Positions 3,030 to 51,513 of a stretch of DNA of 64,000 nt are shown piece by piece. Within the stretch, counting starts at the first letter, position 1, and every line of letters begins with the position of its first letter. The stretch comes from an uncultured Bacteroidales bacterium. GTDB taxonomy: Bacteria > Bacteroidota > Bacteroidia > Bacteroidales > Paludibacteraceae. The translations under genes were made by a program, and so were the position numbers. The DNA lies in NCBI GenBank assembly GCA_902765485.1, contig CACWZZ010000005.1, positions 84,428-148,427 on the forward strand, written 5' to 3'. The notes beneath the pieces are model-generated. The model saw only the letters and a program-made list of their open reading frames with translations. It ran no database searches and was not told the DNA's origin.

Positions 3030-4415
3030 ATGGAAATTCAACTATTAAATAAGCGCAGAGAGACGTCAAACGTCCAAGTCGGCAACATTTTTATCGGGTC
3101 CGACTACCCTATTCGTATTCAGACGATGGCGAACACTTCGACCAACGATATTGACGGTTCCGTGGAGCAAGCGAGACGTTGTATTGAAGCCGGAGCAGAG
3201 TTGCTGCGATTCACCACGCAAGGCCTGCGCGAAGTGGAGTCTCTCAAAGAGATTCACGCGCAAGTGCTGACGGCTGTTCCGCTGGTGGCGGATGTACATT
3301 TTAATTCCGAAGTGGCAGACGCCGCAGCGGAGGTGGTAGAGGCTGTACGGGTTAATCCGGGCAATTACAGTAAGGATCCGACCAAATTGGAGGAGCGTTT
3401 TGTTCACCTGCTGCAGATATGCAAGGCGCACGGAACGGCTATCCGTATCGGGGTCAATCATGGTTCATTGAGCGAACGGATGATGGACCAGTACGGCGAC
3501 ACGCCGCGAGGAATGGTGGAGAGCGTCATGGAGTTCCTGCGGATTGCTATGCGCGAAGCATTCCATGAGATTGTCATTTCCGTCAAGGCATCCAACACAC
3601 GCGTCATGGTGGAGACCGTGCGGTTACTGGTGAAGCAGATGGACAAAGAAGGAATGGCTTTTCCGCTGCATCTGGGCGTGACGGAAGCCGGCGAAGGCGA
3701 AGACGGACGTATAAAATCGGCTGTGGGAATCGGTGCGCTGCTGGCTGACGGCATCGGTGACACGATTCGCGTGAGCCTCAGCGAAGCGCCGGAAAACGAG
3801 ATACCTGTAGCGCGCCAGTTAGTAGATTATTTCGCGGATGAAGAGTCGGTGCGCTACGATGGTTCGGTGCGAGCGGAAGTGCTGGATAATATCGGCGGTT
3901 ATGCCGAGGTGCGCTATTCGTCGATGGAGGAAGACTGGGAGCTCTTCTGCCTGCAAGCCGCAGCGGAATGCGGACGGTTGCTGTGGGATTACAACGCGCA
4001 GGAGCTGACGCTCGTCAATCCGCATTTCTCCGAGAGCCGACTCAATTTCCTGAGCAAGGACATCTTGCAAGCCGCGCGCGTGCGTATATATAAAACGGAG
4101 TATATCTCCTGCCCGGGCTGCGGGCGAACGATGTTTGACCTGCAAAAGACGGTTGCGGAAGTTAAAGAAGCTGTCAGCCATCAGCCATCAGCAGTCAGTC
4201 AAGGTCTGAAGATCGCTGTGATGGGCTGTATTGTGAACGGACCGGGTGAGATGGCGGACGCCGATTACGGTTATGTGGGCGCAGGTCGTGACCGTGTGAG
4301 TCTCTACCGCGGCAAAGAGTGTGTGCTGAAGAATATCCCGCAGGAAGAAGCGGTGGAGCAGTTGTTGAAGTTGATTGCATCTGACCGAGGCACATCTCTC
4401 TCCACCGACCGATGA
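3030..4415 (+). CDS. ispG: 4-hydroxy-3-methylbut-2-enyl diphosphate synthase (flavodoxin/ferredoxin)
   Basis: 461-residue IspG/GcpE. It makes HMBPP from MEcPP in the MEP isoprenoid pathway, using a 4Fe-4S cluster. The N-terminal TIM barrel (PIRIQTMANTST ... VADVHFN ... RVNPGN) and C-terminal cluster domain (CPGCGRT and GCIVNGPGEMADADYG) are clear. Bacteroidota enzymes, as I recall them, are ~600 residues with a large middle insert; here only ~100 residues lie between the halves. Residues 381-391 (VSHQPSAVSQ) are an in-frame heptanucleotide repeat placed between the two Cys motifs. The last ~11 residues (ending LSTDR) come from another repeat that runs over the stop codon. Confidence 0.95.
   Translation: MEIQLLNKRRETSNVQVGNIFIGSDYPIRIQTMANTSTNDIDGSVEQARRCIEAGAELLRFTTQGLREVESLKEIHAQVLTAVPLVADVHFNSEVADAAAEVVEAVRVNPGNYSKDPTKLEERFVHLLQICKAHGTAIRIGVNHGSLSERMMDQYGDTPRGMVESVMEFLRIAMREAFHEIVISVKASNTRVMVETVRLLVKQMDKEGMAFPLHLGVTEAGEGEDGRIKSAVGIGALLADGIGDTIRVSLSEAPENEIPVARQLVDYFADEESVRYDGSVRAEVLDNIGGYAEVRYSSMEEDWELFCLQAAAECGRLLWDYNAQELTLVNPHFSESRLNFLSKDILQAARVRIYKTEYISCPGCGRTMFDLQKTVAEVKEAVSHQPSAVSQGLKIAVMGCIVNGPGEMADADYGYVGAGRDRVSLYRGKECVLKNIPQEEAVEQLLKLIASDRGTSLSTDR
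4171..4200 (+). repeat. (CAGCCRT)n heptamer repeat inside ispG
   Basis: Consecutive units CAGCCAT, CAGCCAT, CAGCAGT, CAG in frame with ispG, encoding SHQPSAVSQ. It belongs to the same family as the inserts at 6706, 7617, 7849, 10537, 31690 and 50448. Confidence 0.85.
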
Positions 4416-4456
4416 CCGACCGATGACCGACTCACAACCGAGCCAAGACCGAGACA
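4382..4456 (+). repeat. ACCGA-rich periodic repeat across the ispG stop
   Basis: Runs of ACCGACCGATG and ACCGAG words with CACAACCGAG. A near copy lies at 57552-57590. The repeat supplies the final IspG residues and its stop codon. Confidence 0.75.
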
Positions 4457-4512
4457 AGAAAAATGGTATAGCACAGGAAGAAGTATACACTGCAAGGACA
4501 AGAGGTCAAGTA

Positions 4513-4550
4513 AAGTGACTAGGTGACGATGTACGATGTACAAAGTGAGC
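4513..4550 (+). repeat. AAGTGAC/GATGTAC word repeat
   Basis: Degenerate 8-9 nt words (aagtgac, taggtgac, gatgtac, gatgtac, aaagtgag) between ispG and pfp. Related to the words at 6541-6575 and, in reverse complement, at 44140-44172. Confidence 0.6.
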
Positions 4551-4583
4551 AGGCAGGCACAGATTGAATTGCCCGCCTGTTTG
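4550..4583 (+). terminator. Probable terminator after ispG
   Basis: CAGGCAGGC and GCCCGCCTG pair with one mismatch around a 12-nt loop and run into TTTGCATT. The following ~190 nt before the pfp promoter hold no gene I can see. Confidence 0.45.
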
Positions 4584-4775
4584 CATTATAGGCGAATCTA
4601 ATAATCGGGCACATTAGGCGGAGGGGGTTAGGTACTCCACTATTGTTCTGATTGTACTTTTCTTAGGACGTTGTCGGGACATGATCCCGTGATGGTCATG
4701 TTCTAATCTGTATATTCGTACGGAAAACGATTATTACCAAATAGTAGAAAAGTAGCAGAAAATCGCCCTTTCTCT

Positions 4776-4807
4776 TGCATATATCAAAAAAAAGCAGTAA
4801 ATTTGCA
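4776..4807 (+). promoter_or_regulatory. Promoter of pfp
   Basis: TTGCATATATCA, A-tract, GCAG, then TAAATTTGC. The leader to the pfp start is ~80 nt and contains a short ATCGTTAA duplication near 4853-4870. Confidence 0.85.
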
Positions 4808-4886
4808 GGCAAATTTGGTTTGAAGCACATGCAACACCCGAATTTATATATCATCGTTAAATCGTTAAAATAAAAATACTAATCTT

Positions 4887-6539
4887 ATGCAAAAAAGTCC
4901 ATTACAAATTGCGCGTCAGAGCTATCAGCCGAAAATGCCGGTAGCATTGCAGGGCGCGGTACGCCTGGTAGAAGGCGAGAAGACACAGTCCGTAGCAGAC
5001 CAAGAAGAGATCAAAAAACTCTTCCCGAACACGTACGGTATGCCGGTCATTACGTTTGAGCCAGCAGAAGGTCAACCTCAACATTCAGAGCCGTTCAATG
5101 TGGGTGTTATCCTCTCGGGCGGTCAAGCTCCCGGTGGTCACAACGTCATCAGCGGTCTGTACGACGGTCTGAAGGCTCTCAATCCGAACAACAAACTGTA
5201 TGGTTTCCTCGGTGGTCCTTCGGGTCTGATTGACGGCAAGTATCAAGAGTTGACAGGCGAAATCATCGACGAATACCGCAACACCGGCGGCTTCGACATC
5301 ATCGGTTCCGGTCGTACCAAACTGGAAGAGACTTGGCAGTTCGACAATGGTATCGAGATCTGCAAACAATTGGGAATCAAGGCAGTAGTGATCATCGGTG
5401 GTGATGATTCGAACACCAACGCTTGCGTTTTGGCAGAGTATTATCTGCAAAAGAAATGCGGTATTCAGGTGATCGGTTGCCCGAAGACCATTGACGGTGA
5501 CCTAAAGAACGAGATGATTGAGACTTCGTTCGGTTTCGACACCGCTTGTAAGGTTTATAGCGAGTTGATCGGTAACATTCAGCGCGACGCGAACAGCGCG
5601 AAGAAATACTGGCACTTCATCCGTCTGATGGGTCGTAGCGCCAGCCATATTGCGCTGGAGTGCGCTCTCCAGAGCCAGCCGAATATCTGCCTGATTTCCG
5701 AAGAGGTAGAGGCAAAAAACATGACCCTGAACGACATCGTAGAGGACATCGTGAAGGTGATCGTAGCCCGTGCCAATGCAGGTCTCAACTTCGGTACTAT
5801 CCTCATTCCGGAAGGACTGATTGAGTTCATCCCGGCGATGCGTGTGCTGATTCAGGAGCTGAACGACCTGTTGGCAAGCAACGAGGAGTTCGCTTCGCTG
5901 GAAGGCGACGACGCAAAGCGCGAGTACGTGAAATCCATGCTGACTCCGGCTTCGTGCGAGCTGTACCGCTCTCTGCCGAAAGGTATAGCACGTCAGCTGA
6001 CGCTCGACCGCGACCCGCACGGAAACGTGATGGTGAGCCAGATCGAGACCGAGAAACTGCTGATTGAGATGGTTCAGAAGCGTCTGGCAGTGCTCAAAGC
6101 CAACGGCGAGTACAAAGGTAAGTTCTCTGCGCTGAACCACTTCTTCGGTTACGAAGGTCGTTGCGCTATCCCGTCGAACTTCGATGCAGACTACTGCTAT
6201 TCGATCGGTGTGAACGCAACTCATCTGATCGCTGCCGGCAAGACGGGTTACATGTCGCTGGTTCGCAATCTGACCAAACCGGCTGCTGAGTGGATCGCCG
6301 GCGGTGTGCCTATCACGATGATGATGAACATGGAGAAGCGTAACGGTAAGATGAAACCGGTTATCCAGAAAGCTCTGGTGGACCTCAACGGCAAACCGTT
6401 CCAGTATCTGGTGGCTCACCGCGAGGACTGGGCAGATCCCGAGACCAGCTACATCTACCCGGGTCCGATCCAGTACTACGGTCCGACCGAGGTTTGCGAC
6501 CAGCCGACAAGAACATTGTTGCTGGAGAGAGGAAAATAA
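4887..6539 (+). CDS. pfp: Diphosphate--fructose-6-phosphate 1-phosphotransferase
   Basis: 550-residue PPi-dependent phosphofructokinase of the long plant/Bacteroidota type. It reversibly phosphorylates fructose-6-phosphate in glycolysis using PPi rather than ATP. The glycine-rich [14 protein letters not shown] loop (about residues 75-90), GGDDSN (~171-176, the second Asp marking PPi use), catalytic [10 protein letters not shown] (~200-209) and [11 protein letters not shown] substrate loop are present. C-terminal [19 protein letters not shown] and GYMSLVRNL are also typical. It has its own promoter. The start follows the promoter and a long leader. The next gene begins 44 nt after the stop, beyond a short repeat, so the two may be co-transcribed. 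Confidence 0.96.
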
Positions 6540-6540
6540 A

Positions 6541-6575
6541 TTTAAGTGACCAAGTGACCAAGTACCAAGTACAAA
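6541..6575 (+). repeat. AAGTGACC octamer repeat
   Basis: AAGTGACC, AAGTGACC, AAGTACC, AAGTAC in tandem directly after the pfp stop and before the next start. Its reverse complement reappears in the signal-peptide codons of the PL9-like gene at 44140. Confidence 0.8.
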
Positions 6576-6583
6576 GGAGTGTT

Positions 6584-7174
6584 TTGGGGCTACTCCTAAT
6601 GGTAATCAGCATGACCCTGTCCGCACAAGATTTTTCTGCGGACAGGGGCTTGTTTGAAGCCTATCAGCGCGAGGACATGAGCGTGTGGGAGGAGTATCTG
6701 GGAAACCGTCAGCCGTCAGCCGTCAGCCATCAGATGTTGATTTACGAGTACGGATATTGCGGATATATCGTGGCGGAGGCAAAGAAAGAGGGCAAGGAAG
6801 CATTGCTGCCGAAAGCCAAGCGGTACGTGCAACAATTCCGTAGCGACGTAGAAGCAGCGAAAGGATCCTTACCGGCAGGACATTACGAGATGTATATGTC
6901 AGCCGTCATGGTCTATGAAATGCGGCTTCATATTGCCATTCGCCCTATCAAAGCAATGTCGCTGGCGAAAGAGGCAACCAAATTAGCACCCAAAGATCCG
7001 CTGGTATTGGCGTATTACGGCACGTCGCTCTATTACGCTCCGGCTCCCTTTGGGAGTAAGAAAGAAGCGTTGCAGTATTTCAAGCAAGCCAAAGAGCTGT
7101 TCCAAGGTCCGCAATGGGAGTATTGCTGGGTGCGCAAGGCAACGGAGATGTATATTAGGGGAATGGAGAAGTGA
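6584..7174 (+). CDS. Exported hypothetical protein (TPR-like helices)
   Basis: About 196 residues if translation starts at TTG 6584, which follows AAAGGAG at 6572-6578; ATG 6599 is the alternative. The beginning (GLLLMVISMTLSAQ then DFSAD) looks like a signal peptide cut after Ala-Gln. The body is all helical with repeated K/A-rich segments (KAMSLAKEATKLAPKDPLVL ... ALQYFKQAKELF), resembling tetratricopeptide pairs. Residues RQPSAVSHQ at 6706-6733 are a heptamer-repeat insert. The stop overlaps the following thioesterase gene by 4 nt, so they are probably co-transcribed. I do not recognise a specific function. Confidence 0.7.
   Translation: MGLLLMVISMTLSAQDFSADRGLFEAYQREDMSVWEEYLGNRQPSAVSHQMLIYEYGYCGYIVAEAKKEGKEALLPKAKRYVQQFRSDVEAAKGSLPAGHYEMYMSAVMVYEMRLHIAIRPIKAMSLAKEATKLAPKDPLVLAYYGTSLYYAPAPFGSKKEALQYFKQAKELFQGPQWEYCWVRKATEMYIRGMEK
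6706..6733 (+). repeat. (CAGCCRT)n repeat in the exported protein gene
   Basis: CGT then CAGCCGT, CAGCCGT, CAGCCAT, CAG, read as RQPSAVSHQ. Confidence 0.85.
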
Positions 7175-8016
7175 GAATGAATTATACTCATAAATATTCG
7201 ATTACGGCGGCGGATATGGACACACGGTATCGGATGACGCCAAACGCTGCGCTGCTGTATTATCAGGATTGCTGGGCTCGGTTCATGGCGTGTTTGCACC
7301 TTGCCGCATTTGATATGGTGAAGGTGAACCGGATGTGGGTGATCACTGAGTTCAACGCTTTTTTCGAAGAAGAGACCGCGTTGTGGTCGGAGGAGATAGA
7401 GGTGGAAGTGTGGAACAGCGAGTTATCGGCTTTGCGGCTGTATGCGGAGTTCCGTTTCCGCCGTCCGGACGGGAAAGAGGTAGCGCACGGCTATGGCTGC
7501 TGGACGCTGCTGGACACCGAAGCACACCGTTTAGCACCGCTGACTCCTTTTGCGGAGCAGATTCCGGTGGTAGCCGAAATGACGACGGAGAGCCATAAGA
7601 AGATGCGGTTTGCTAAGCCGTCAGAAATCAGCCATCAGCCGTCAGAGGGCAGCCTTCAGATACCGGAGATCAAGCATCGAGTGAATCCGATCAATTTGGA
7701 TTTCAACGGTCATGTAAACAATCGGACCTATCTGTCGATTGCGATGCAGCAGGCAGACGAGGCTTTTCTGGATGCGCACGCCATCCGTCGGATTGCGATT
7801 CATTGGCTGCGGGAGACGTTCCTCGGCGACACGCTGACGTGCCAATATAAGCCGTCAGAAGTCAGCCATCAGCCGTCGAAGAGCAGCAATCAACAGGCAT
7901 TGGGAGTGCTTGCTAATCTGACGCGCGAAGACGGAGAGTTATCTGCGCAGATCTATACGGAGTGGGCGCCTCGCACGATAGCGACGGACATTGCTGCACA
8001 AGCTCCCAGAGATTGA
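7171..8016 (+). CDS. Acyl-ACP thioesterase
   Basis: 281-residue double-hotdog thioesterase of the FatA/plant-like family. It releases fatty acids from acyl carrier protein. The first hotdog starts with YSITAADMDTRYRMTPNAALLYYQD and includes WVITEFNAFF. The second carries NPINLDFNGHVNNRTYLSIAMQ, whose N-x-H pattern is the active-site signature. Two heptamer-repeat inserts lie in the protein. Residues ~149-161 (KPSEISHQPSEGS) join the two hotdogs, and residues ~227-243 (KPSEVSHQPSKSS) sit in the second domain just before LGVLANL. Both fall where loops would be expected. The start overlaps the preceding gene by 4 nt. Confidence 0.9.
   Translation: MRMNYTHKYSITAADMDTRYRMTPNAALLYYQDCWARFMACLHLAAFDMVKVNRMWVITEFNAFFEEETALWSEEIEVEVWNSELSALRLYAEFRFRRPDGKEVAHGYGCWTLLDTEAHRLAPLTPFAEQIPVVAEMTTESHKKMRFAKPSEISHQPSEGSLQIPEIKHRVNPINLDFNGHVNNRTYLSIAMQQADEAFLDAHAIRRIAIHWLRETFLGDTLTCQYKPSEVSHQPSKSSNQQALGVLANLTREDGELSAQIYTEWAPRTIATDIAAQAPRD
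7617..7652 (+). repeat. (CAGCCRT)n repeat, thioesterase insert 1
   Basis: CCGTCAGAAATCAGCCATCAG-type words in frame, linking the two hotdog domains. Confidence 0.8.
7849..7898 (+). repeat. (CAGCCRT)n repeat, thioesterase insert 2
   Basis: CCGTCAG AAGTCAG CCATCAG CCGTCGA followed by degenerate AGCAG words. Same orientation and same peptide pattern as insert 1. Confidence 0.8.
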
Positions 8017-8046
8017 TTTTCCGAGTGGCAGAAAGAAGACGTTTAT

Positions 8047-8088
8047 CTGCCAAAATGGCAGTTATTGGTTCGGGGGTATATTGTTTGT
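8047..8088 (+). promoter_or_regulatory. Palindrome and promoter-like sequence before clpB
   Basis: CTGCCA-AAA-TGGCAG is a perfect inverted repeat (8047-8061), followed by TTATTGG and TATATTGTTTG. The arrangement resembles palindromes I recall in front of Bacteroidota chaperone genes, which suggests stress control. Neither the operator nor its protein is established here. Confidence 0.5.
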
Positions 8089-8096
8089 AGTTAAGA

Positions 8097-8150
8097 GGAT
8101 GGCTAGTTGACTAGACGACTATATGACTAGCGGACTAGGGCACTAGGGAA
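8097..8150 (+). repeat. GACTAG word repeat in the clpB leader
   Basis: gctagttgactagacgacta... with five CTAG cores spaced 8-11 nt, lying in the expected 5' UTR of clpB. A similar array is at 25128-25195. Confidence 0.75.
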
Positions 8151-8181
8151 ACAGAAATTATTAACTAAACAATATACAACT

Positions 8182-10242: not shown

Positions 10243-11222
10243 TGAATAAAAAAAGCGGCTTATTTATAGGTCTGACAGTACTATTAGCCGGGCTGTTTTG
10301 CCTGGACGTATGTAGCGGTAGCATGTGGTTATCGCCATGGGGGGATTTGAACCCGATGGAGCAGAATATACTACATGCTATTCGCTTGCCTAAAGCTATT
10401 ACGGCAGTTCTGGCAGGCGCTTCGCTATCGGTAGCGGGACTTATTATGCAGACGCTTTTCCGCAACCCTTTGGCGGGTCCATACACACTGGGTGTCTCGT
10501 CCGGCGCGAGCTTGGGAGTGGCATTGCTGACGATGCTGTCGGCGGTCAGTTATCAGCTGTCAGCCTTCAGTTTTCAGCCGTCCGCTTTCGGCATACCGAT
10601 TGCAGCATGTATCGGCGCAACGATGGTGTTGCTGCTGGTGCTCGGCGTGAGCCGGAGAGTAACCAGCAACGTCAGTCTGCTGATTGTCGGAATGATGTTC
10701 GGCTCGATAGCCGGTGCGTTGGTGAGTCTGCTGCAGAACTTCGCTAATCCGGACGCGCTGAAGTTATTCATCGTCTGGACTCTGGGTTCGCTCAGCAGCG
10801 TCGGATGGAACGACATGCAGCTGATGATCCCTATTCTACTCCTCGGCGCGGGCTTTGTGCTGCTGTCGCTGAAGCCGCTGAACGGATTGATGCTGGGCGA
10901 GGACTACGCGCGCGGAATCGGTATCAACGTATCGCGTACGCGACTTTTTATTGTATTAGCGACCGGTTTATTAGCAGGCGGAGTGACCGCTTTCTGCGGT
11001 CCGATTGCATTCATCGGTGTCGCCGTTCCTCATATCGCGCGAGGGATTTTCAGGACGACCAACCACCGCATAACGATTCCTGCGGCAGCCCTGATAGGCG
11101 GATGTCTGCTGCTGGTATGTGATGTGCTGTGTTCGCTGGCGATTTACCCGCTGCCTATCTCCACCGTGAGTGCTCTGTTTGGCGCGCCGGTGATTATTTG
11201 GATTATTTTAAAAAAGCATTGA
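10242..11222 (+). CDS. FecCD-family ABC transporter permease
   Basis: 326-residue inner-membrane permease of the BtuC/FecD/FhuB type, which imports iron-siderophores, heme or cobalamin. The family signature RLPKAITAVLAGASLSVAGLIMQ and NPLAGPYTLGVSSGASLG is present, as is GPIAFIGVAVPHIAR, the coupling-helix region. Residues 100-116 (SAVSYQLSAFSFQPSAF) are a heptamer-repeat insert in a loop between membrane helices. No ATPase or binding-protein gene is adjacent; it is flanked by clpB and panB. It must use partners encoded elsewhere or be non-functional. The substrate cannot be told from the sequence. Confidence 0.88.
   Translation: MNKKSGLFIGLTVLLAGLFCLDVCSGSMWLSPWGDLNPMEQNILHAIRLPKAITAVLAGASLSVAGLIMQTLFRNPLAGPYTLGVSSGASLGVALLTMLSAVSYQLSAFSFQPSAFGIPIAACIGATMVLLLVLGVSRRVTSNVSLLIVGMMFGSIAGALVSLLQNFANPDALKLFIVWTLGSLSSVGWNDMQLMIPILLLGAGFVLLSLKPLNGLMLGEDYARGIGINVSRTRLFIVLATGLLAGGVTAFCGPIAFIGVAVPHIARGIFRTTNHRITIPAAALIGGCLLLVCDVLCSLAIYPLPISTVSALFGAPVIIWIILKKH
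10537..10589 (+). repeat. (CAGCCRT)n repeat in the permease gene
   Basis: Degenerate CGGTCAGTTATCAGCTGTCAG... words spanning seven units in frame. This is the most diverged member seen, and Phe/Tyr codons replace several polar ones, fitting a membrane protein. Confidence 0.8.
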
Positions 11223-11225
11223 TAT

Positions 11226-12068: not shown

Positions 12069-12082
12069 TGCAGCTCAATGTC

Positions 12083-12926: not shown

Positions 12927-12964
12927 GTCAAATTTTTTCAATAACACCTAATTTATATATCACA

Positions 12965-25127: not shown

Positions 25128-25195
25128 AATAGTAGGGCTAGTCGGACTAGTAGAACTAGAAGAACTAGTTTAACTAGTAGAACTAGGGGGTTGGG
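25128..25195 (-). repeat. ACTAG/GAACTAG word repeat
   Basis: Six CTAG or CTAGT cores at 8-10 nt spacing between the MFS gene and the lipoprotein gene. Similar to 8097-8150. Confidence 0.75.
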
Positions 25196-26727: not shown

Positions 26728-26803
26728 CTTACTAACTAATGAATCACCTACTAATCACCTACTAATCACCTACTAATTACCTACTAATCACCTATAGATG
26801 ACA
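26728..26803 (+). repeat. TACTAATCACC 11-nt tandem repeat
   Basis: Five to six near-perfect copies of CACCTACTAAT in the non-coding region between the MFS promoter and recQ. Confidence 0.9.
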
Positions 26804-27509: not shown

Positions 27510-29693
27510 ATGAATGTAACACATGAAGATTTAGTAAAAGCGCTGCAGACTTATTTTGGGTTTGACACGTTCAAAGGCAATCAGGAAGCAATTATCCGTA
27601 ACATTATTGACGGGAAAGACACGTTTGTGCTGATGCCGACAGGTGGCGGCAAGAGTTTGTGCTTCCAGTTACCGTCGTTGATCATGGAGGGCGTGGCGAT
27701 CGTTATATCGCCGCTGATTGCGCTGATGAAGAACCAAGTGGACGCGATGCGGAACTATTCGGAGGAAGAAGGCGTAGCGCATTTTATCAACTCGAGTTTG
27801 AGTCGCGGCGAGATCAACGCTGTGAAAGAGGATGTATTGGCAGGTCGGACGAAGCTGCTGTATCTTGCGCCGGAGAGTTTGCAGAAGACAGAGAATGTGG
27901 ACTTTCTGAAGGGCGTGAAGATCAGTTTTTATGCGGTAGATGAGGCACATTGTATCTCGGAATGGGGACACGATTTCCGTCCGGAATACAGCCAGATCCG
28001 GAGCATGGTTCAACGTATCGGCAAAGCTCCGATTATTGCGTTGACGGCGACGGCAACTCCGAAGGTGCAGAAAGATATTCAGAAGAATTTGGGCATGCCG
28101 GACGCGACGGTTTTCAAGAGCAGTTTCAACCGTCCGAACCTGTATTACGAAGTACGTCCGAAAGACGGCGATATAGACAAAGAGATCGTACGTTACATCC
28201 GCGGAATGGAAGGCAAGAGCGGTATTGTGTATTGCTTGGCGCGGAAGGAAGTGGAGGATCTGGCGCAAGTGCTGCAAGTGAACGGTATTAGTGCGCGCGC
28301 TTACCACGCCGGAATGGATGCCGCGACACGAAGCGCGAACCAAGATGCGTTCCTGATGGAAGAAGTGCAGGTGATCGTTGCTACGATCGCTTTCGGAATG
28401 GGAATCGACAAGCCGGATGTGCGGTTTGTGATCCATTACGACATTCCGAAGAGTCTGGAGGGTTATTATCAGGAGACAGGTCGTGCGGGCCGCGACGGAG
28501 GCGAAGGCCAGTGTATCTGTTTCTACAGCCCGGACGACATCGAGCGTCTGCGCCGATTCCAGAAAGACAAGACTCCGAAAGAGATCGGCATCGGCAACCA
28601 GCTGCTGTTCGAGACGCAGAGTTATGCGGAGAGCACGATATGCCGCCGGAAGCTGCTGCTGCACTATTTCGGCGAGGAGTACACGGAAGACAACTGCGGC
28701 AACTGCGATAACTGCCGGAAGACATACAAGATGGTCGATGCGAGCGAGATTCTGCAGATCGCGCTGGAGACGATTCAGCAGGTTAACGAACACCACAAAG
28801 CGGAACATATCGTAGATATTTTGCACGGCAACCAGACGGCGGAAGTGATGAGTTACCACCACGACGAGCTGGAGAACTTCGGAGCTGCGAGCGACGAGGA
28901 AGAGAGCACGCTGTTTGCTATCTTACGGCAGGCATTGCTGCGCGGAATGATCACCAAAGATGTAGATAGTTACGGCGACCTGAAGCTGACCAAAGACGGA
29001 TTGAAATTTATTCGCAGAGCGGGCAAATTCGAAGTGCCGATTGAGATCCACGACGAGGAAGACGAGATCATGGAAGGCGCGGGAGCGACATGTGCTGCTG
29101 CGGACGAAGTGCTGTTCTCGATCCTCAAAGATATCCGCCGCAAAGTGGCGAAAAAGAGCGACGTGCCGCCGTTTGTGATTTTCCAAGATCCGAGTCTGGA
29201 AGCGATGGCAACGACTTATCCGATCACGATGGAAGAGTTGCTGACCATTCCGGGTGTGGGTGTGGCGAAAGCCAAACGGTACGGAGACGAGTTCCTGCGC
29301 GTGATTAAGGAATACGTGGACGAGAACGAGATCATCCGTCCGGAGGACTTGCGGATTCGTACGGTAGCGAAGAAATCGACACGCAAGAAACAGATTATTC
29401 AGGCGATCGACCGGCGTGTGGACCTGGACGACCTGGCAGAGAGTTGCGGTATGTCGATGGAAGAAATGATGGACGAATTGGAGGCGATCGTGTTCAGCGG
29501 AACAAAGATCAACATCGATTATTTCATCAAAGAAGTGGTTGACCCGGACGAGGAAGCCGATATCTACGAGTATTTCAAGAACGCGGAAAACGACAGTATC
29601 AAGGCGGCGATGGAAGAGCTGGGCGAGGATTACTACGACGAGATGCATGTGCGGCTCGTGCGGCTGAAGTTCCACTGCGATTTGGGGAATTGA
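27510..29693 (+). CDS. recQ: ATP-dependent DNA helicase RecQ
   Basis: 727 residues. 3'-5' helicase for recombination and fork repair. TGGGKS Walker A (~44-49), DEAH box (~144-147, AVDEAHCISEWGHDFRPEY), TATATPKV, motif VI ETGRAGRDG. The RQC zinc site is C-R-R-K...CGNCDNC, followed by a winged helix and a C-terminal HRDC domain (FVIFQDPSLEAMATTYP ... IPGVGVAKAKRYG). A further ~100-residue C-terminal part, usual in Bacteroidales RecQ, ends in DLGN. Heads a long + strand series, preceded by a repeat-filled leader. Confidence 0.96.
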   Translation: MNVTHEDLVKALQTYFGFDTFKGNQEAIIRNIIDGKDTFVLMPTGGGKSLCFQLPSLIMEGVAIVISPLIALMKNQVDAMRNYSEEEGVAHFINSSLSRGEINAVKEDVLAGRTKLLYLAPESLQKTENVDFLKGVKISFYAVDEAHCISEWGHDFRPEYSQIRSMVQRIGKAPIIALTATATPKVQKDIQKNLGMPDATVFKSSFNRPNLYYEVRPKDGDIDKEIVRYIRGMEGKSGIVYCLARKEVEDLAQVLQVNGISARAYHAGMDAATRSANQDAFLMEEVQVIVATIAFGMGIDKPDVRFVIHYDIPKSLEGYYQETGRAGRDGGEGQCICFYSPDDIERLRRFQKDKTPKEIGIGNQLLFETQSYAESTICRRKLLLHYFGEEYTEDNCGNCDNCRKTYKMVDASEILQIALETIQQVNEHHKAEHIVDILHGNQTAEVMSYHHDELENFGAASDEEESTLFAILRQALLRGMITKDVDSYGDLKLTKDGLKFIRRAGKFEVPIEIHDEEDEIMEGAGATCAAADEVLFSILKDIRRKVAKKSDVPPFVIFQDPSLEAMATTYPITMEELLTIPGVGVAKAKRYGDEFLRVIKEYVDENEIIRPEDLRIRTVAKKSTRKKQIIQAIDRRVDLDDLAESCGMSMEEMMDELEAIVFSGTKINIDYFIKEVVDPDEEADIYEYFKNAENDSIKAAMEELGEDYYDEMHVRLVRLKFHCDLGN

Positions 29694-29747
29694 AAGTTGA
29701 AAGTTGAAAGTTGAAAGAAGTCGTCTAGTAGAAAGTTAAAAGTTCAA
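29693..29747 (+). repeat. AAGTTGA heptamer repeat
   Basis: Three exact GAAAGTT units, then diverged AAAGTTAAAAGTTCAAAGT words up to the rimO GTG start. Sense-strand units contain TGA in one of each three phases, and here the run is intergenic. Confidence 0.88.
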
Positions 29748-29748: not shown

Positions 29749-31134
29749 GTGGTTAAAGGAGAGATAGATTTTATCACGCTGGGATGCTCGAAGAACCTGG
29801 TGGATGCTGAGCGTGTGATGCGGCAGTTGGAGGCGGCAGGCTGGCGGTGTGTGCATGACGCAGAGGATCCGAAAGGAGAGATTTGCGTGATCAACACCTG
29901 CGGCTTCATCGGCGACGCCAAAGAGGAGAGTATCAATATGATACTCCGGATGGGAGAGCGGAAGAAGCAAGGGAAACTGCGGAAGCTGATCGTAATGGGC
30001 TGTCTGAGCGAACGGTACCGCGCGGAACTGGAGAAAGAGTTGCCGGAAGTGGATGCGTATTACGGGAAGTTCGATTTTGAAAAGATGGTGGAAGGAGTAG
30101 GAACCCCCACCCCTACCCCCTCCCAAAAGGGAGGGGAAGCCGGATGCCATCCGGCAAAATTGAAGAATCTTTATGAGCGGAAGTTGACGACGCCGAAACA
30201 TTACGCTTATCTGAAGATCAGCGAAGGTTGCAACCGGTTCTGTTCGTATTGCGCGATACCGCTAATCACAGGCAGGCATACCAGCCGCCCGAAAGAGGAG
30301 ATATTGGACGAGGTGCGATGGCTGGTGAGCCAAGGCGTGAAAGAGCTGAACGTGATTGCACAGGATCTGAGCAGCTATGGGCTGGATTTGAAGGATGAAA
30401 ATGAAAGGACGAAGGAGGAAGGAAGAGGCAAGCATCTGTTGCCGGAGTTGATTGACGAGATAGCACAAGTGCCGGGCGTGGAATGGATTCGGCTGCATTA
30501 CGCTTATCCGACGGATTTTCCGGAAGGGCTGCTGGATGTGATGGCGAAACATGCAAATGTGTGCAAGTATCTGGACATCGCTTTGCAGCATTGTACGGAC
30601 CACATGTTGGGGTTGATGCGGCGGCATATAACACGCGCAGAACAGGATGCGCTGATTAAGAAAATACGCGAGAAAGTGCCGGGGATCTGTATTCGCACGA
30701 CGCTGTTAGTGGGTCATCCGGGTGAGACAGAGGAAGATTTTGAGGAGCTGAAGAAATGGGTGAAAGAGATGCGATTTGAGCGGATGGGTTGTTTTGCGTA
30801 CTCGGACGAGGAAGGGACTTATGCGAACAAGCATTACAAGGACGATATTCCGCAGGAGGTGAAAGATGCGCGTGCGGCAGAGCTGATGGCTATTCAGCAG
30901 GAGATCAGCGGCGAGTTGATGCAACGGTTTGTGGGGAGGACAGAGAAGGTGATTATTGACCGCGAGGAAGGCGATTATTTCATCGGGAGGACGCAATATG
31001 ACAGCCCGGAAGTGGATTGCGAAGTGCTGATTGACAAGTTGAAAGTTGAAAGTTTAAAGTTGAAAGAGGGGGAGTTTTATGAGGTGGAGATCACCAAAGC
31101 AGAAGAATTTGATTTGTACGGAAAAATATGCTAA
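29749..31134 (+). CDS. rimO: Ribosomal protein uS12 methylthiotransferase
   Basis: 461 residues; starts at GTG 29749 (VVKGEIDFITLGCSKN). Radical-SAM enzyme adding a methylthio group to Asp of ribosomal protein S12. The N-terminal MTTase domain has C13 (LGCSKN), NTCGFIGDAKEES and GCLSERY. The radical-SAM cluster is C161/C165/C168 (CNRFCSYC), and there is a TRAM domain at the end. Three repeat-derived insertions occur: residues ~117-136 (TPTPTPSQKGGEAGCHPA) from a palindromic repeat, a charged stretch DENERTKEEGRGK near 215, and KLKVESLKLK just before the TRAM end. The usual length is ~430. Confidence 0.95.
   Translation: MVKGEIDFITLGCSKNLVDAERVMRQLEAAGWRCVHDAEDPKGEICVINTCGFIGDAKEESINMILRMGERKKQGKLRKLIVMGCLSERYRAELEKELPEVDAYYGKFDFEKMVEGVGTPTPTPSQKGGEAGCHPAKLKNLYERKLTTPKHYAYLKISEGCNRFCSYCAIPLITGRHTSRPKEEILDEVRWLVSQGVKELNVIAQDLSSYGLDLKDENERTKEEGRGKHLLPELIDEIAQVPGVEWIRLHYAYPTDFPEGLLDVMAKHANVCKYLDIALQHCTDHMLGLMRRHITRAEQDALIKKIREKVPGICIRTTLLVGHPGETEEDFEELKKWVKEMRFERMGCFAYSDEEGTYANKHYKDDIPQEVKDARAAELMAIQQEISGELMQRFVGRTEKVIIDREEGDYFIGRTQYDSPEVDCEVLIDKLKVESLKLKEGEFYEVEITKAEEFDLYGKIC
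30098..30157 (+). repeat. Palindromic C/G-rich repeat in frame inside rimO
   Basis: CCCCCACCCCTACCCCCTCCC, AAAA, GGGAGGGG, followed by a second hairpin GCCGGATG/CATCCGGC. It replaces the short loop between MTTase and radical-SAM domains. Confidence 0.75.
31036..31070 (+). repeat. AAGTTGA heptamer repeat in frame inside rimO
   Basis: TTGAAAGTTGAAAGTTTAAAG: one unit carries T for G (GTTTAAA), which removes the in-frame TGA that a pure run would create. Confidence 0.75.
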
Positions 31135-31409: not shown

Positions 31410-32612
31410 ATGGCAGAGAAACTAAGTTGGAGCGAGTTACGACGCGCTTTGGCGGTACGCGCCGGCGTGAGCGAGAAGACAGCCGGAGCGTTTCTGAACG
31501 GTTTAGTGAACCAGTTGATCAATGGATTGAAGAGCGATAAGCAAGTGAAGATCAACGGTTTGGGTACGTTCAAGTTGCAAACCGTTGCGCCTCGTAAGAG
31601 TGTGAATGTGAGCACCGGAGAGGAGATCATGATCGAGGGCTACAACAAGATTGTTTTTTCGCCGGAGGCAGGTCTGAAGGAGTTGGTTGAAAGTCGTCAG
31701 CCATCGGATGTCAGCCTTCAGCCGTTAGTCTTTAGCGACCAGCCGAATGAGGGTGATTTTCCGATTGATCCGATAAAGAAATTAGGCGAGCAAGCGGACG
31801 AGATCGTGGGTCTGCTGGCAGAGATAGACAGCATCGAAGAGCCGAAGGAGGAACCGAAAGAGGTTGTAGAGGAGCCGAAGGAGGTTGAGACGCCGGAAGA
31901 GGAACCGAAGGTGGTTGTACCTGAGGAAGAACCGAAAGTGGTAATACCGGAAGTGCCGGAAATACCAAAAGAACCGAAAGTGGTAATACCGGAGGAAGAG
32001 CCGGAGATTATTGTGCAGAGACCGAAGAAGCCTGAGAAAAAGAAATATCATTTCTTCCGGGATGTGCTGATCAGCGTGCTTATTCTGTTGTTGCTGCTGG
32101 CAGGCGGGTATTTCTTCCTTCGCAACCAGTTGAGCGGTATTCTGGAGTCGCTGTTGAAGCCGGAACAGGAACAGACAGAGCAAGTGGAGAGTCCCCAAAT
32201 AGAAAACCCCACCCCGACCTTAGCAGAAGGGGAGGGAGAAGAGGAGAGCCCTTCGCAGCTGGATTTGATTCCTGAAGGCGACATTCCGCAAGCACAGATT
32301 CTGGATGAGTTTAATGCCATTTCGGCAGGAGAAGAGTTGGAGGAGCCTTACTCCGACTTGATCACGACGGAGCCGATGCACGAAGGCAGCCGTTTGACAT
32401 GGATGGCAAAACGGTTCTACGGCGACAAGCGTTTTTGGCCGTACCTGTATGACGCCAACCGAGACAGGATAAGTAACCCGAGCAATATCGAAGTAGGTAC
32501 GCCGATCCGTGTGCCGCGGTTGACGCAAGCACAGTTGGACACGACCAACCGTGCATCGATGGAGGCATTGGACAAGTTGCGGATTGAGGCAGAAGCAGCG
32601 TGCAAAAAGTGA
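31410..32612 (+). CDS. HU domain - transmembrane - LysM fusion protein
   Basis: 400 residues. HU-like domain (1-90, INGLGTFKLQTVAPRKSVNVSTGEEIMIEGYNKIVF), a repeat-derived insert (RQPSDVSLQPLVFSDQP, ~95-112), an acidic P/E/V repeat linker (~140-205), one membrane helix (~217-236) and a C-terminal LysM-like domain (~315-375, HEGSRLTWMAKRFYGDKRFWPYLYDANRD ... GTPIRVPRL). The plan implies DNA binding in the cytoplasm and peptidoglycan contact outside. A second C/G-rich repeat encodes PTPTLAEGEGEEE near residue 270. Overlaps uvrA by 13 nt. Confidence 0.88.
   Translation: MAEKLSWSELRRALAVRAGVSEKTAGAFLNGLVNQLINGLKSDKQVKINGLGTFKLQTVAPRKSVNVSTGEEIMIEGYNKIVFSPEAGLKELVESRQPSDVSLQPLVFSDQPNEGDFPIDPIKKLGEQADEIVGLLAEIDSIEEPKEEPKEVVEEPKEVETPEEEPKVVVPEEEPKVVIPEVPEIPKEPKVVIPEEEPEIIVQRPKKPEKKKYHFFRDVLISVLILLLLLAGGYFFLRNQLSGILESLLKPEQEQTEQVESPQIENPTPTLAEGEGEEESPSQLDLIPEGDIPQAQILDEFNAISAGEELEEPYSDLITTEPMHEGSRLTWMAKRFYGDKRFWPYLYDANRDRISNPSNIEVGTPIRVPRLTQAQLDTTNRASMEALDKLRIEAEAACKK
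31690..31743 (+). repeat. (CAGCCRT)n repeat in the HU-LysM gene
   Basis: CGTCAGCCATCGGATGTCAGCC-type words over ~54 nt in frame, placed just after the HU domain. Confidence 0.8.
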
Positions 32613-38357: not shown

Positions 38358-40158
38358 TCACATATCGATGGAGTTCTCGTCCCGACCTGTGCTGGACGAC
38401 ATCTCGTTCCTTGTCAACCGCAAGGAGCGCATCGCGCTGGTTGGCAAGAACGGAGCGGGCAAAACAACCTTGTTGCGCCTGATTGCCGGCGAATACCAAC
38501 CCACCTCCGGGCGTGTTGCCAAAGAGAACGATATGACCATCGGATACCTGCCGCAGGTGATGCTTTTCCAGGACGACCGGACGCTCCGCGAAGAAGTAAT
38601 GACCGTCGCGCACGAGGACGAAGCGCGGTTTGTCGCCGAAATGGACCGGACTATCATCGGCTTGGGATTCGAACGCAAGGATTTTGACCGTCCGTGCAGC
38701 GAGTTCTCCGGCGGTTGGAGAATGCGTATCGAGTTGGCGAAGATCCTCTTGCGGCATCCCGACCTGTTGCTGCTCGACGAGCCGACCAACCATCTCGACA
38801 TCGAGTCCATCCAGTGGCTCGAAGACTTCCTCAAATCCAGTCCGTCTGCCGTCCTCATGGTCAGCCACGACCGCGCGTTCATCGATAATGTGTGCGGACG
38901 AACGATTGAGATCACGCTCGGGCGCATCTACGACTACAACGTCAACTACAGCCGCTTTGTGGAGCTGCGCAAAGAGCGGCATGAGCAACAAGTGCGTGCC
39001 TACGAGAACCAGCAAAAAATGATCCAGGAGACCGAGGACTTCATCGAGCGATTCCGATATAAAGCGACCAAAGCGGTTCAAGTCCAGAGCCGCATCAAAC
39101 AGTTGGAGAAACTGGAGCGGTTGGAAGTGGATTTGGAGGACACCAGCCGACTCAACCTGCGTTTCCCGCCTGCTCCCAGAAGCGGCGATTTTCCAATTAT
39201 CGCAGAAGATCTGCGCAAGGATTTCGGTTCCCACAATGTCTTCCATGACGTCACCTTCACCATCCGCAGAGGCGAAAAAGTAGCGTTCGTCGGCAAGAAT
39301 GGCGAAGGAAAAACAACCCTCGTCAAATGTATTATGGGCCAGTTGGACTACATGGGCACGCTGAAAATCGGACACAATGTCAAGATCGGCTATTTCGCCC
39401 AGAACCAAGCTGCCCTCTTGGACGAAAACCTCACGGTCTTTGAGACCATTGACTATGTGGCGGTGGGCGATATACGAACCAAGATTCGCGACATCCTCGG
39501 CGCGTTCATGTTCGGCGGCGAAGCCAGCGAAAAGAAAGTAAAAGTGCTCTCCGGAGGCGAACGAAGCCGACTCGCCATGATCCGCCTTCTGCTGGAGCCG
39601 TGTAACCTGCTCATCCTCGATGAGCCTACCAACCATCTGGACATGCAGTCCAAAGATGTGCTCAAAGCCGCGCTGCAGGACTTCAACGGAACCATGATAT
39701 GCGTCAGCCACGACCGTGATTTCCTCAACGGACTTGTCTCCAAAGTGTATGAATTTGGCGGCGGCAGAGTCAAAGAACACCTCGGCGGAATATACGATTT
39801 CCTGCGCGCCAAAAAGATTGACTCGCTCCAAGAATTGGAACGCAAAAATAATGACCCAGCATCGGGTCAATCCCGACGGTCAGCCGACGGTCAGCCGACG
39901 GTCGAAGCCAACGCTGGTATGACGCAAGGCGCACTTTCGTACGCCGCGCAGAAAGCCGCGGCAGCGGAAAAACGCAAGAAAGAGAAGCAGATCGCAGAGA
40001 CCGAAGCGGCAATCGCGGAGCTGGAGCAACAGCAAGCGGAGATCGAGCAACTGCTGACGATACCGGAGAACCAGACCCAGGAACTGTTCCAACGGTACGA
40101 ATCGGTCAAACATCAGATCGAGCAGAAGATGTACGAATGGGAGATTTTAAGCGAATAA
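38344..40158 (+). CDS. ABC-F family ATPase (ribosome-associated type)
   Basis: 604 residues, two ABC domains and no membrane part. GKNGAGKTT (~34-42) and GKNGEGKTT, signatures EFSGGWRMR and LSGGERSRL, Walker B LLLLDEPTNHLD and LLILDEPTNHLD. The interdomain linker is rich in basic and aromatic residues (RFVELRKERHEQQVRAYENQQKM). ABC-F proteins act on stalled ribosomes; the length and C-terminal coiled coil fit the Uup/YdiF group. Residues ~509-521 (GQSRRSADGQPTVE) are a repeat insert just ahead of the coiled coil. Confidence 0.9.
   Translation: MLTIDHISMEFSSRPVLDDISFLVNRKERIALVGKNGAGKTTLLRLIAGEYQPTSGRVAKENDMTIGYLPQVMLFQDDRTLREEVMTVAHEDEARFVAEMDRTIIGLGFERKDFDRPCSEFSGGWRMRIELAKILLRHPDLLLLDEPTNHLDIESIQWLEDFLKSSPSAVLMVSHDRAFIDNVCGRTIEITLGRIYDYNVNYSRFVELRKERHEQQVRAYENQQKMIQETEDFIERFRYKATKAVQVQSRIKQLEKLERLEVDLEDTSRLNLRFPPAPRSGDFPIIAEDLRKDFGSHNVFHDVTFTIRRGEKVAFVGKNGEGKTTLVKCIMGQLDYMGTLKIGHNVKIGYFAQNQAALLDENLTVFETIDYVAVGDIRTKIRDILGAFMFGGEASEKKVKVLSGGERSRLAMIRLLLEPCNLLILDEPTNHLDMQSKDVLKAALQDFNGTMICVSHDRDFLNGLVSKVYEFGGGRVKEHLGGIYDFLRAKKIDSLQELERKNNDPASGQSRRSADGQPTVEANAGMTQGALSYAAQKAAAAEKRKKEKQIAETEAAIAELEQQQAEIEQLLTIPENQTQELFQRYESVKHQIEQKMYEWEILSE
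39868..39905 (+). repeat. CCGACGGTCAG repeat in frame inside the ABC-F gene
   Basis: Three copies of CGACGGTCAGC, an 11-nt unit related to the CAGCCGT family, encoding GQSRRSADGQPTV. Confidence 0.8.
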
Positions 40159-47903: not shown

Positions 47904-47915
47904 GTCTCCTGCAGA

Positions 47916-48725: not shown

Positions 48726-48733
48726 AGAATGTA

Positions 48734-48850
48734 CGATTATTAAGATTTTAGTACGGTATTCGTCGGTATCCTGTCGGTCTATCGTGCCGTATGTGAGTCG
48801 TAGGTGTCTCGTAAGTGGCAGGTAAGCGCAAAAAGTGACGATTATTAAGA
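48734..48850 (+). mobile_element. 117-bp repeat element, copy 1
   Basis: Bounded by direct repeats CGATTATTAAGA (48734-48745 and 48839-48850). Interior has degenerate CGTCGGTATCCTGTCGGTCT words. Matches the reverse complement of 60243-60360 over the whole length with scattered differences. No ORF. Lies between araC-like and a terminator. Confidence 0.75.
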
Positions 48851-48852
48851 AT

Positions 48853-48886
48853 AAAAAATCAAGCAGCTTTCCTGCCGCTTGATTTC
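48853..48886. terminator. Terminator between convergent genes
   Basis: AATCAAGCAGC and GCCGCTTGATT pair with one mismatch around a 6-nt loop; A tract before, T tract after. Confidence 0.85.
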
Positions 48887-48903
48887 GTATAGTGTTTGAC
48901 GTA

Positions 48904-49821: not shown

Positions 49822-49899
49822 ATGATATTTTAATCTATCGTCTGTTTGCCTTTATGTCCTTTTCTCCGGTTTTACGTCTCGGAGAGGGACGAGGTTTGG

Positions 49900-50052
49900 C
49901 TACAATGCTACGGTGAACGGATCTACATACTGAACTTGCCCGTTCTCACAGAAGATAAGCGGTTGGTTGTCACGGCGGTGTTGCTCCACTAATCTACGAT
50001 GGGTTAATTGCAAACCCTCATTGACTTTTGATTCTAATTCACTTTCACTCAT
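49900..50052 (-). CDS. Small protein, probable partner (antitoxin) of a zeta-type toxin
   Basis: 50 residues: MSESELESKVNEGLQLTHRR ... QPLIFCENGQVQYVDPFTVAL. N-terminal amphipathic helix and a short beta end. Its ATG overlaps the stop of the zeta remnant (ATGA), the coupling expected of a toxin-partner operon. The 3' flank (CCCTCTCCGAG...CTCCGG) resembles that after the intact zeta gene at 58440. I infer the antitoxin role from position only. Confidence 0.6.
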   Translation of the reverse strand: MSESELESKVNEGLQLTHRRLVEQHRRDNQPLIFCENGQVQYVDPFTVAL

Positions 50053-50138
50053 ATTTTGTGTATTAATTCGTTCCACATTTCTTGTATTTTGCCGGCGCCG
50101 TTCGGACCTGCAATAATATACAGATTAGGGTGTTGCAT
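50049..50138 (-). pseudogene. Zeta-toxin-like kinase remnant
   Basis: 29 codons: MQHPNLYIIAGPNGAGK is a normal zeta/AAA kinase start with Walker A. It runs straight into IQEMWNELIHKI and a stop, so ~170 residues holding the catalytic and substrate parts are deleted in frame. Promoter and downstream gene remain. Confidence 0.7.
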
Positions 50139-50160
50139 CGCTTTCAAACGATTTTGCGCT

Positions 50161-50192
50161 GCAAAATTACACAAAAAAAATGACATGTGCAA
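50161..50192 (-). promoter_or_regulatory. Promoter of the broken zeta cassette
   Basis: - strand TTGCACATGTCA, T-rich spacer, TAATTTTGC, 23 nt before the remnant start. Confidence 0.75.
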
Positions 50193-50245
50193 GTGTTTTT
50201 ACTGCTTTTTCGGCGAAATGTGTATCATTTGCCGTAAATTGTGTA

Positions 50246-50277
50246 ACGGATATATAAGAAAAAAGCAGTAATTTTGC
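50246..50277 (+). promoter_or_regulatory. Promoter of the alcohol dehydrogenase operon
   Basis: GGATATATAAG, A6, GCAG, TAATTTTGC; the -33 side is weaker than usual. ~43 nt leader. Confidence 0.7.
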
Positions 50278-50319
50278 ACCGCAAAATGAAATTGCGCAAT
50301 TAACAAAAACACAAATAAT

Positions 50320-51513
50320 ATGCAAAACTTTGATTATCAGACACCGACACGACTTATTTTCGGCGAAGGCGTAGTAGAGAAACTGCCGAAAGTGATGAGC
50401 GCATTCGGCAAGAAAATCCTCCTCACTTACGGCGGAGGAAGTATAAAAAAGATTTCAGCCTTCAGAAATCAGCCCTCAGCCGGAAGTTTGTATGACTACG
50501 TGCATGAGGCACTCAAGGACTTTGAGATCGTCGAACTGAGCGGTATTCAGCCGAACCCGAAATATGATCCTTCGGTTTTGGAAGGCGTGCGGCTTTGCAA
50601 AGAGCACAAGGTGGATGTCATCCTCTCTGTTGGCGGCGGTTCGGTACTCGATTGCTCCAAAGCGATTGCAGCCGGTGCTTGCTATGACGGCGATCCGTGG
50701 GACCTCATCTCCTACAAAGTGAAAGCCCAGGCAGCCCTGCCGATAGTGGATATTATCACGCTGGCTGCTACCGGTAGCGAATACGACTGCGGCGGTGTTA
50801 TCTCCCGCACGGAGACCAACGACAAGATCGGTTATTTGGACCGCCACTTGTTCCCTGCCGTTTCGTTCCTCGACCCGACCTATACGTTCTCGGTAAGCAA
50901 GAAACAGACTGCTGCGGGTATTGCAGACGCGATGAACCACACCATCGAGCAGTATTTTGCGGAAGACACCACGCTTCTCAACGACGGTTTCTGCGAGTCC
51001 ATGCTCCGCTCGCTCATGGAGAACGGACGCAAGTGCATCGCTAACCCGGAGAACTACAAAGCCCGCGCGGAGATGATGCTGGCTTGCACGTACGGCTGCA
51101 ACGGTATTCTGGCACTCGGCAACAGCGAGTCCGGCTGGCCCTGCCACGGCATTGAACATGCCCTCTCTGCCTATTACGACATCACCCACGGCGAGGGATT
51201 AGCCATCATCACGCCGCGGTGGATGAAGCACATCCTCAACGAGCACACCCTGCCGCGTTTCGTCAAATACGGCATCAATGTCTTTGACATCGACCCCTCG
51301 CTGACCCAATGGGAGATTGCCAACCAAGCCATCGAAGCGACGTACGCGTTCTTTGAGTCCATCAACATCCCTATGCACCTGCGCGAAGTAGGTATTGACG
51401 ATAGCCGTTTGGACGAGATGGCGCATCATATCGCCGTCAACGAAGGGCTGGAGAACGCTTATGCACCCCTCACGGAGCAGGATATTAAACAAATCTTAGT
51501 TGACAGTCTCTAA
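50320..51513 (+). CDS. Iron-containing alcohol dehydrogenase (YqhD/BDH type)
   Basis: 397 residues. NAD(P)H-dependent reduction of aldehydes to alcohols. [16 protein letters not shown] and [15 protein letters not shown] form the nucleotide site. Metal ligands lie in [11 protein letters not shown] and [20 protein letters not shown]. Residues ~44-56 ([12 protein letters not shown]) are a heptamer-repeat insert placed just after the first glycine loop, where homologs have a few residues. First of three genes with an acetyltransferase and a flavodoxin. Confidence 0.94.
50448..50485 (+). repeat. (CAGCCRT)n repeat in the alcohol dehydrogenase gene
   Basis: TTTCAGCCTTCAGAAATCAG-type words, five units in frame, same orientation as the others. 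Confidence 0.8.

Follow-up and report, generated by a model that had tools for sequence, protein, structure and literature searches.

Short tandem arrays of a heptamer that joins a constant TCAG to a variable triplet (TCAGNNN) lie within conserved genes of a 64,000-nucleotide stretch from an uncultured Bacteroidales bacterium of the family Paludibacteraceae (assembly GCA_902765485.1, contig CACWZZ010000005.1, positions 84,428 to 148,427; hereafter the window). A sequence-only reading of the window had described them as runs of CAGCCRT and had proposed an active repeat-generating or repeat-moving process. The arrays are real. Their unit is less strictly defined than first described, and the phenomenon extends further: CAGCCRT is simply the most frequent form of TCAGNNN, itself one among several heptamer families. 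Support exists for a genome-wide set of sense-oriented, frame-agnostic arrays in conserved genes, and for a repeat-generating process. As to its mechanism, we give about even credence to the view that heptamer patches of ~30 nucleotides (nt; 4.3 periods) arise by template switching among existing arrays and then pass through an open-frame filter.

The genome is represented by 2.12 Mb in 41 contigs and is 82.8% complete. We read 859 kb of it (41%, window included) for arrays; rates come from stretches of contigs C1, C2, C3, C5, C6, and C7 alone (659 kb, which include the window, a stretch picked because of its arrays), and a second batch, partly aimed at known arrays, was hence left out of them. 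Gene calls were home-made and missed nine array-bearing genes, which were restored by eye from open frames. Across the whole assembly, TCAGNNNTCAGNNNTCAG has 480 matches (286 + 194), versus two (1 + 1) for the reversed pattern that served as control, and CAGCCRTCAGCCRT has 83 versus none, with overlapping matches within one array tallied separately. Among 337 units the triplet is most often CCG (81) or CCA (58), followed by CTA (22), CCT (20), AAG (20), CTG (18), CAG (15), and others; TTA occurs four times, GNN triplets are nearly absent, and the unit contains no G-tract. When codons were shuffled synonymously in 576 called genes, leaving every protein unchanged, sense-strand chains of at least three cores fell from the 67 observed to a mean of 2.9 (maximum 7 in 30 shuffles), while the two antisense chains compare with 1.2 expected.

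The 859 kb contain 94 arrays, of which 76 lie in coding sequences (CDS) in the sense orientation, two in genes in the antisense orientation, and 16 in noncoding DNA or at gene edges, four "edge" arrays being entered as noncoding. The claim that genes carry the repeat always in sense is borne out, the two antisense cases being at chance level. The sense share in genes (~81%) equals the coding fraction (0.81). In the 659-kb subset the split is 38 sense, one antisense, and seven noncoding; thus genes are not depleted of arrays, and per strand, array density there is somewhat higher on the coding strand than in noncoding DNA (binomial p 0.016). Frame independence, also claimed from the sequence, holds as well, with the first core falling in the three codon phases 20, 22, and 25 times among 67 CDS arrays. 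The encoded peptides are polar and loop-like. Genes assigned from their translations, with no family search, include a PorX-like regulator (one array in the receiver domain), RluD, RibD (two arrays), MutY, a DAHP synthase, and an ABC ATPase, as well as a CPBP-type protease whose arrays reach 12 and 14 units. Some intergenic arrays form convergent, hairpin-capable pairs (C1:51583-51639, C11:54317-54370, and C11:55015-55068), the first of which is matched by no array in the sister species.

Homologous genes from related species show that one loop can carry different heptamers. In the FecCD permease of the window, a loop holds an array of five clean cores plus decayed ones (10541..10592, forward strand, as are all window arrays below). 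We took the best 30 of 167 matching genomes, of which 16 were aligned around the loop, where the surrounding protein is near-invariant. The 30 loops, labelled by eye, carry TCAG-type arrays (7, the label of L145 being weak), TCAGTTT (3), TTTCAAC (6), period-8 repeats (2), CCACTTT (1), or no repeat (11). Identity of at least 13/16 at a lag of 7 is found in 11 of these loops but in none of the 1821 windows taken from the rest of the gene; the loop of our window scores 12/16, as does one loop labelled as repeat-free. A 30-tip FecCD tree built from sequence outside the loop requires 14 parsimony changes for the labels and seven for presence or absence.

The ispG array (4169..4198; four cores, 30 nt) lies between two conserved stretches of the C-terminal domain, which we take to be the Fe-S domain. 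Among 28 sequences (the 27 nearer of 60 loci plus our own), 23 keep a short loop (15 nt shorter), two have other insertions, and three have a heptamer patch, the motifs being, by eye, TCAGNNN in our species, ACCAATC in L040, and GACYAAS in L038. Each patch replaces ~15 nt by 30, a net gain of 15 nt. The IspG loop of L052 has a direct duplication (~27 nt) and no heptamer array. In the acyl-ACP thioesterase, which has two arrays (7616..7659, six units; 7850..7892, seven heptamers), 30 homologs were compared and arrays occur in our species and its sister alone; the 28 array-free homologs may stem from a second gene copy, which in our genome is 73% identical.

Four-core TCAGNNN arrays occur in 132 of 178 genomes of the genus, our own included, with 0 to 303 matches each. 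In some genomes of the genus it is the reversed pattern that abounds, and species have vocabularies of their own, such as AGTCRAA in G166 and CTCAAC(G/C) in G181. Relatives retrieved through IspG are mostly metagenome-assembled genomes (MAGs) of Bacteroidales, Bacteroidia, or Paludibacteraceae, many of them from ruminant samples. An assembly artefact, named at the outset as a possible undoing of the repeats, is unlikely because independent MAGs have arrays at homologous sites, a judgement that rests on MAG sequences rather than reads. In a sample of the phylum, 151 of 395 Bacteroidota genomes match (ours included). The top count in that table, 627 four-core matches, belongs to G380 (69% GC in the stretch read), in which 60 kb contain three arrays, two of them outside called genes.

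The sister species G163 (94-97% residue identity in two proteins and ~89-91% base identity) allows a closer view. Within the sister stretches compared, 24 of the 94 arrays have a counterpart region. Ten are retained, nine of them at equal length and the tenth next to a length difference in its flank. A clean multiple of 7 separates another four from the sister, three in genes (+42, +21, and +21) and one at a gene edge (+28), and the remaining ten have other DNA in place of a TCAG array, in one case the heptamer GGACAAA (C9:79004). At C1:181923 and in the exported protein described below, the loop of the sister is not of TCAG type and is similar or equal in length. Gaps of 7, 6, and 8 nt number 16, 6, and 7 in the noncoding part of the comparison and 10, 27, and 6 in CDS. 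The term "inserted" describes some sites, and others, among them IspG, the exported protein, and C1:181923, are replacements. The sequence-only reading had held that orthologous loops of unrelated DNA of equal length would speak against it; such loops, of roughly equal length, are seen at the exported protein, C1:181923, and C5:10349, and are not seen at the thioesterase and C5:10066. Replacement and in-register length change thus both occur.

Once established, arrays diverge about as fast as flanking DNA: a hand count over 11 retained arrays, which omits five listed arrays that the sister lacks, gives 8 substitutions in 176 core positions and 8 in 99 triplet positions, with 235 in 3038 flanking positions. 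Including the five loci brings the totals to 42/256 for cores and 27/144 for triplets. There is no sign that the TCAG core is protected after birth, because the sampled cores of our species are perfect by choice, which roughly halves the core divergence to be expected. The sisters also show swaps of whole triplets (CCG/AAG and CTG/CCA).

Arrays in genes open with AGCNN-TCAG, the partial unit having A, G, and C at positions 1-3 in 78%, 91%, and 76% of cases; no conserved flank was seen beyond it, apart from a weak upstream A bias in CDS arrays. Four units are the mode in CDS (44 of 76), and the 16 noncoding arrays have three units (5), four units (5), or other numbers up to 18. With all heptamer families pooled over our genome, the sister, and other species (sister-shared arrays counted twice), lengths of 29-34 nt account for 67 of 122 CDS arrays and 38 of 97 noncoding ones, and lengths above 34 nt for 18 of 122 in genes versus 37 of 97 outside. 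As the 29-34 nt peak is present both inside and outside genes, the ~30-nt size seemingly does not come from the frame filter, which seems mainly to take out longer arrays.

The order of units within arrays bears on how they grow. Relative to shuffles within arrays, adjacent units in CDS show no excess identity at a 7-bp lag (42/291 vs 43.7), so that the mark of simple slippage, adjacent units alike, is not found; of the lags examined there, the 21-bp lag alone exceeds expectation (28 vs 20.4, with 16 of 400 shuffles reaching 28; in arrays of at least six units 19 vs 12.0, 6 of 400). A copying step of 21 bp maintains the reading frame. Outside genes, identity at 28 bp is mildly high (9 vs 5.5, 27 of 400). 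Relative to shuffles across arrays, lags of one, two, and three units are all raised (51 vs 37, maximum 54; 46 vs 28, maximum 43; 34 vs 19, maximum 29), because arrays differ in composition. Different loci have more three-unit words in common than 200 shuffles yield (69 vs 34.6, maximum 65), and more four-unit words (11 vs 1.7, maximum 8). We read this as patches built from a pool of units and not from the adjacent unit, with in-frame duplication later.

In the mechanism that we favor, a stalled or broken replication strand would anneal by microhomology to a distant heptamer array and copy a few units, so that template switching would spread a species-specific pool of mixed units, often replacing local sequence. 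In genes, growth would be retained in steps of 21 bp (three units), 7 and 3 having no common factor. A patch in the reverse orientation would meet TGA in every frame and would be removed by selection or survive with the offending unit mutated; long patches would be lost from genes, with survivors in loops. The preference for heptamers may lie in the polymerase, an idea published before for repeats of this length, and we claim no dedicated enzyme.

Several observations weigh against template switching. Copying from elsewhere is something we infer, no donor locus having been demonstrated, and template switching alone leaves the four-unit mode unexplained. Loci share no excess of two-unit words (595 vs 567), one five-unit word, and no six-unit word, and the shared-word shuffle did not preserve unit-to-unit preferences. 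The low 7-bp identity outside genes (9/80 vs 15.1 in within-array shuffles) is predicted by no simple copying model, and the raised lags of one to three units still allow for local copying. Because the +42 and +21 differences are unpolarised, the sister could instead have lost DNA at these places. The FecCD labels track the tree weakly (42 of 1000 label shuffles need 14 changes or fewer; mean 16.8), and that tree is built from a single gene, its deep nodes are weak, and the labels were assigned by eye. A broader and more speculative version, which we hold to be rather doubtful, is a general patching of DNA wherever replication sites stall or break, in which ~30 nt would be written 7 nt at a time, templated on the repeat vocabulary of the cell; heptamer repeats would be its visible trace, and it would generate loops in the housekeeping genes of the genus and would own the four-unit preference credited elsewhere to G-quadruplexes.

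Local replication slippage, in which chance heptamer seeds expand in situ and point mutation then diversifies the units, is somewhat unlikely. It would account for the 7n differences from the sister, the 21-bp higher-order repeats in genes, and the lags raised under across-array shuffling, and polymerase slippage has been proposed for heptamers in the literature. It sits poorly with adjacent units that are no more alike than chance within arrays, with IspG patches that swap 15 nt for 30 from no visible seed, and with diverse triplets beside nearly perfect cores, although in retained arrays the cores change about as fast as the triplets. Simple loss of mismatch repair or of a Y-family polymerase was considered as a cause and rejected: the enzyme-family searches of the assembly, which covered reverse transcriptases (RTs), MutS, and Y-polymerases, returned two MutS-family matches and one Y-family polymerase match.

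The moving element that the sequence-only reading had entertained is not supported. A mobile coding element resembling Rickettsia palindromic elements or PARCELs, in which a defined sequence enters genes in frame, would suit the ~30-nt size preference, the AGCNN start, and the many genes hit in sense only; we regard it as quite unlikely, since neither a fixed sequence nor a conserved flank is present (transposases were not searched for), no six-unit word is shared between loci, a single site has different motifs in different species, and the three frames are used equally. Selection on the DNA itself, with TCAGNNN as a binding site or structure, is very unlikely: convergent pairs at gene ends could serve as hairpin terminators, but the cores of established arrays are not clearly more conserved than the triplets (in a small sample), and vocabularies change between species. 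Selection for a QPSAVSH-like peptide as a functional linker or tag is more improbable still. The peptides are indeed polar and loop-like, and 11 arrays have been kept since the split from the sister, yet synonymous-codon shuffling retains the protein and abolishes the DNA signal, all three frames are used, and in the same loop other families encode unrelated peptides. Repair can leave interstitial telomere repeats, which heptamer patches replacing local DNA resemble, and a telomerase-like RT could patch DNA ends with heptamers from an RNA template, as DRT10 is reported to produce tandem-repeat cDNA. We give this scarcely any weight, since a single genome contains several heptamer families unrelated to each other and the sole RVT_1 match in this incomplete assembly is an RT resembling those of diversity-generating retroelements (DGRs), beside phage genes. 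That RT (C1:121861-123303) adjoins phage-like tail genes and perhaps belongs to a prophage DGR; its IGxxxSQ motif is presumably DGR-like.

Heptamer arrays are present at all seven places in the window where the sequence-only reading had put them. Literal CAGCCRT in at least two copies is confined to four of these (4175, two copies; 6710, three; 7629, two; 7863, two), and those at 10537, 31690, and 50448 are the looser TCAGNNN. Besides the arrays in ispG and FecCD, the window contains a four-core array in an exported protein (gene 6494-7174, array 6704..6733), where the loop of the sister is unrelated and exceeds ours by 15 nt. Of the two thioesterase arrays, the first has an array counterpart in the sister and the second has seven heptamers versus four there, a difference of 21 bp. 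A decaying array lies in an HU-domain protein (gene 31410-32612, array 31692..31729), and a four-core array with triplets CCT, AAA, and CCC in an Fe-dependent alcohol dehydrogenase (50450..50479) has no counterpart within the sister stretches compared. Pfam searches of six window proteins (E<=0.001) confirm the names GcpE/IspG, acyl-ACP thioesterase, FecCD, Bac_DNA_binding (HU), and Fe-ADH; at that threshold, they return no family for protein 6494-7174 and no LysM, which the sequence-only reading had attached to the HU protein. An AlphaFold model of FecCD has a mean predicted local confidence (pLDDT) of 39.4 and was not used.

TCAGNNN is accompanied by other heptamers. The 859 kb contain 140 segments of period 7, 64 of them in called genes. 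Of the 140, 89 do not contain three TCAG/CTGA cores, and 28 of those 89 lie in called genes; families among the 89 include CTCAATT, CTTTCAA, CTTTCACC, CTCAAAT, and GACCAAG. Segments with lags of 6, 8, 9, 10, and 11 number 8, 30, 33, 1, and 54. Periods 9 and 11 are thus raised too, mainly outside genes, and 7 is the commonest short period within genes. More distant Bacteroidota loci have seven period-7 segments in 502 kb. Higher-order repeats of 21 bp occur in genes at C2:29256 and C4:46176. Two survivors in a stop-prone orientation were examined. In window gene 29749-31134, a four-unit TTGAAAG array (31039..31066) has a single unit in which TGA would be in frame, and this unit reads TTTAAAG (codon TTA); in gene C10:47945-49126, a TTGAAAG/GGTGAAA array is likewise broken where TGA would be in frame (TTTAAAG, TTA). 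A further (TTGAAAG)4 (29690..29717) begins at the end of gene 27510-29693 and is nearly all noncoding.

Other repeats were also observed. A second in-gene element of the CCCCACCCC...CCCTCCCC...GGGGAGGG type is found at C5:35990, C5:36046, and window positions 32205 and 30081, as well as in a DAHP synthase-like gene (C1:217731), and such sequences vary between the sisters. Arrays of period 11 (TAATCACCCAC-like and others) occur in the window at 389-450, 4404-4431, 26742-26794, and 39873-39903. A period-9 CTAGNNNNN array (25130-25186) represents a second degenerate-core family, present in some genes elsewhere.

One would expect genes to be purged of any repeat period not divisible by three; in the genome studied here, 7 is the commonest short in-gene period, in every frame, with orientation as what is filtered. 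The arrays form a natural record of foreign-looking DNA indels entering protein loops, in which the signal of mutation (7-nt units, ~30-nt patches, all frames) can be separated from that of selection (stop-free strand, 21-bp growth, limited length). Vocabularies differ among species of one genus, which makes it possible to date the process and to test what serves as its template.

Among known systems, Rickettsia palindromic elements and PARCELs are longer, sequence-defined repeats found in frame in many genes. The TCAGNNN arrays likewise lie in frame in many genes, but are ~30 nt long, are unfixed in sequence, and belong to several families. Searches of the open-licence literature gave, among the matches listed, no report of in-frame heptamer arrays across conserved genes and, for the literal repeat strings, no bacterial-repeat paper by title. 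The closest likeness is to the heterogeneous GGGAATC and GGGGA(T/C)T heptamers of Xanthomonas and Nostoc, which have positions 1-4 and 6 conserved, number hundreds per genome, prefer four units, form convergent pairs, and in a close species pair have their prominent repeats at different genes (PMC4692102). Mixed constant and variable units, four-unit preference, and convergent pairs are thus common to both. The same report places 89-93% of the Xanthomonas repeats in intergenic DNA and states that the four-unit bias matches the need of a G-quadruplex (PMC4692102), whereas ~81% of TCAG arrays lie in genes, in sense. The Xanthomonas and Nostoc units each contain a G-tract, which TCAGNNN lacks; the four-unit size of TCAGNNN is therefore not due to G-quadruplexes, which calls the G-quadruplex account of heptamer four-unit preference into question.

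A second likeness is to TAACTGA direct repeats, the reverse complement of TCAGTTA and thus of a TCAGNNN unit. They occur in Beggiatoaceae, Cyanobacteria, and some Bacteroidetes, with two sets in Paludibacter; the logic of a stop codon in one orientation is already published there, and the repeats are mostly intergenic near start codons, with a nearly fixed unit and rare insertions into open reading frames, chiefly at protein ends (PMC4679880). The TCAGNNN arrays differ in being internal to many conserved genes (76 of 94 in CDS) and in having a variable triplet. Work by Mrazek and colleagues on prokaryotic long simple sequence repeats (units of 5-11 nt) is reported to have found heptamers to be the commonest class, to have proposed polymerase slippage, and to have noted that unit lengths in genes favor multiples of three; the short period seen most often in the genes studied here is 7. 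The arrays show two features of the heptanucleotide class, a tandem 7-nt period at many loci and 7n differences in 4 of 24 arrays. They are an instance of this known class, unusual in being intragenic, frame-agnostic, and multi-family.

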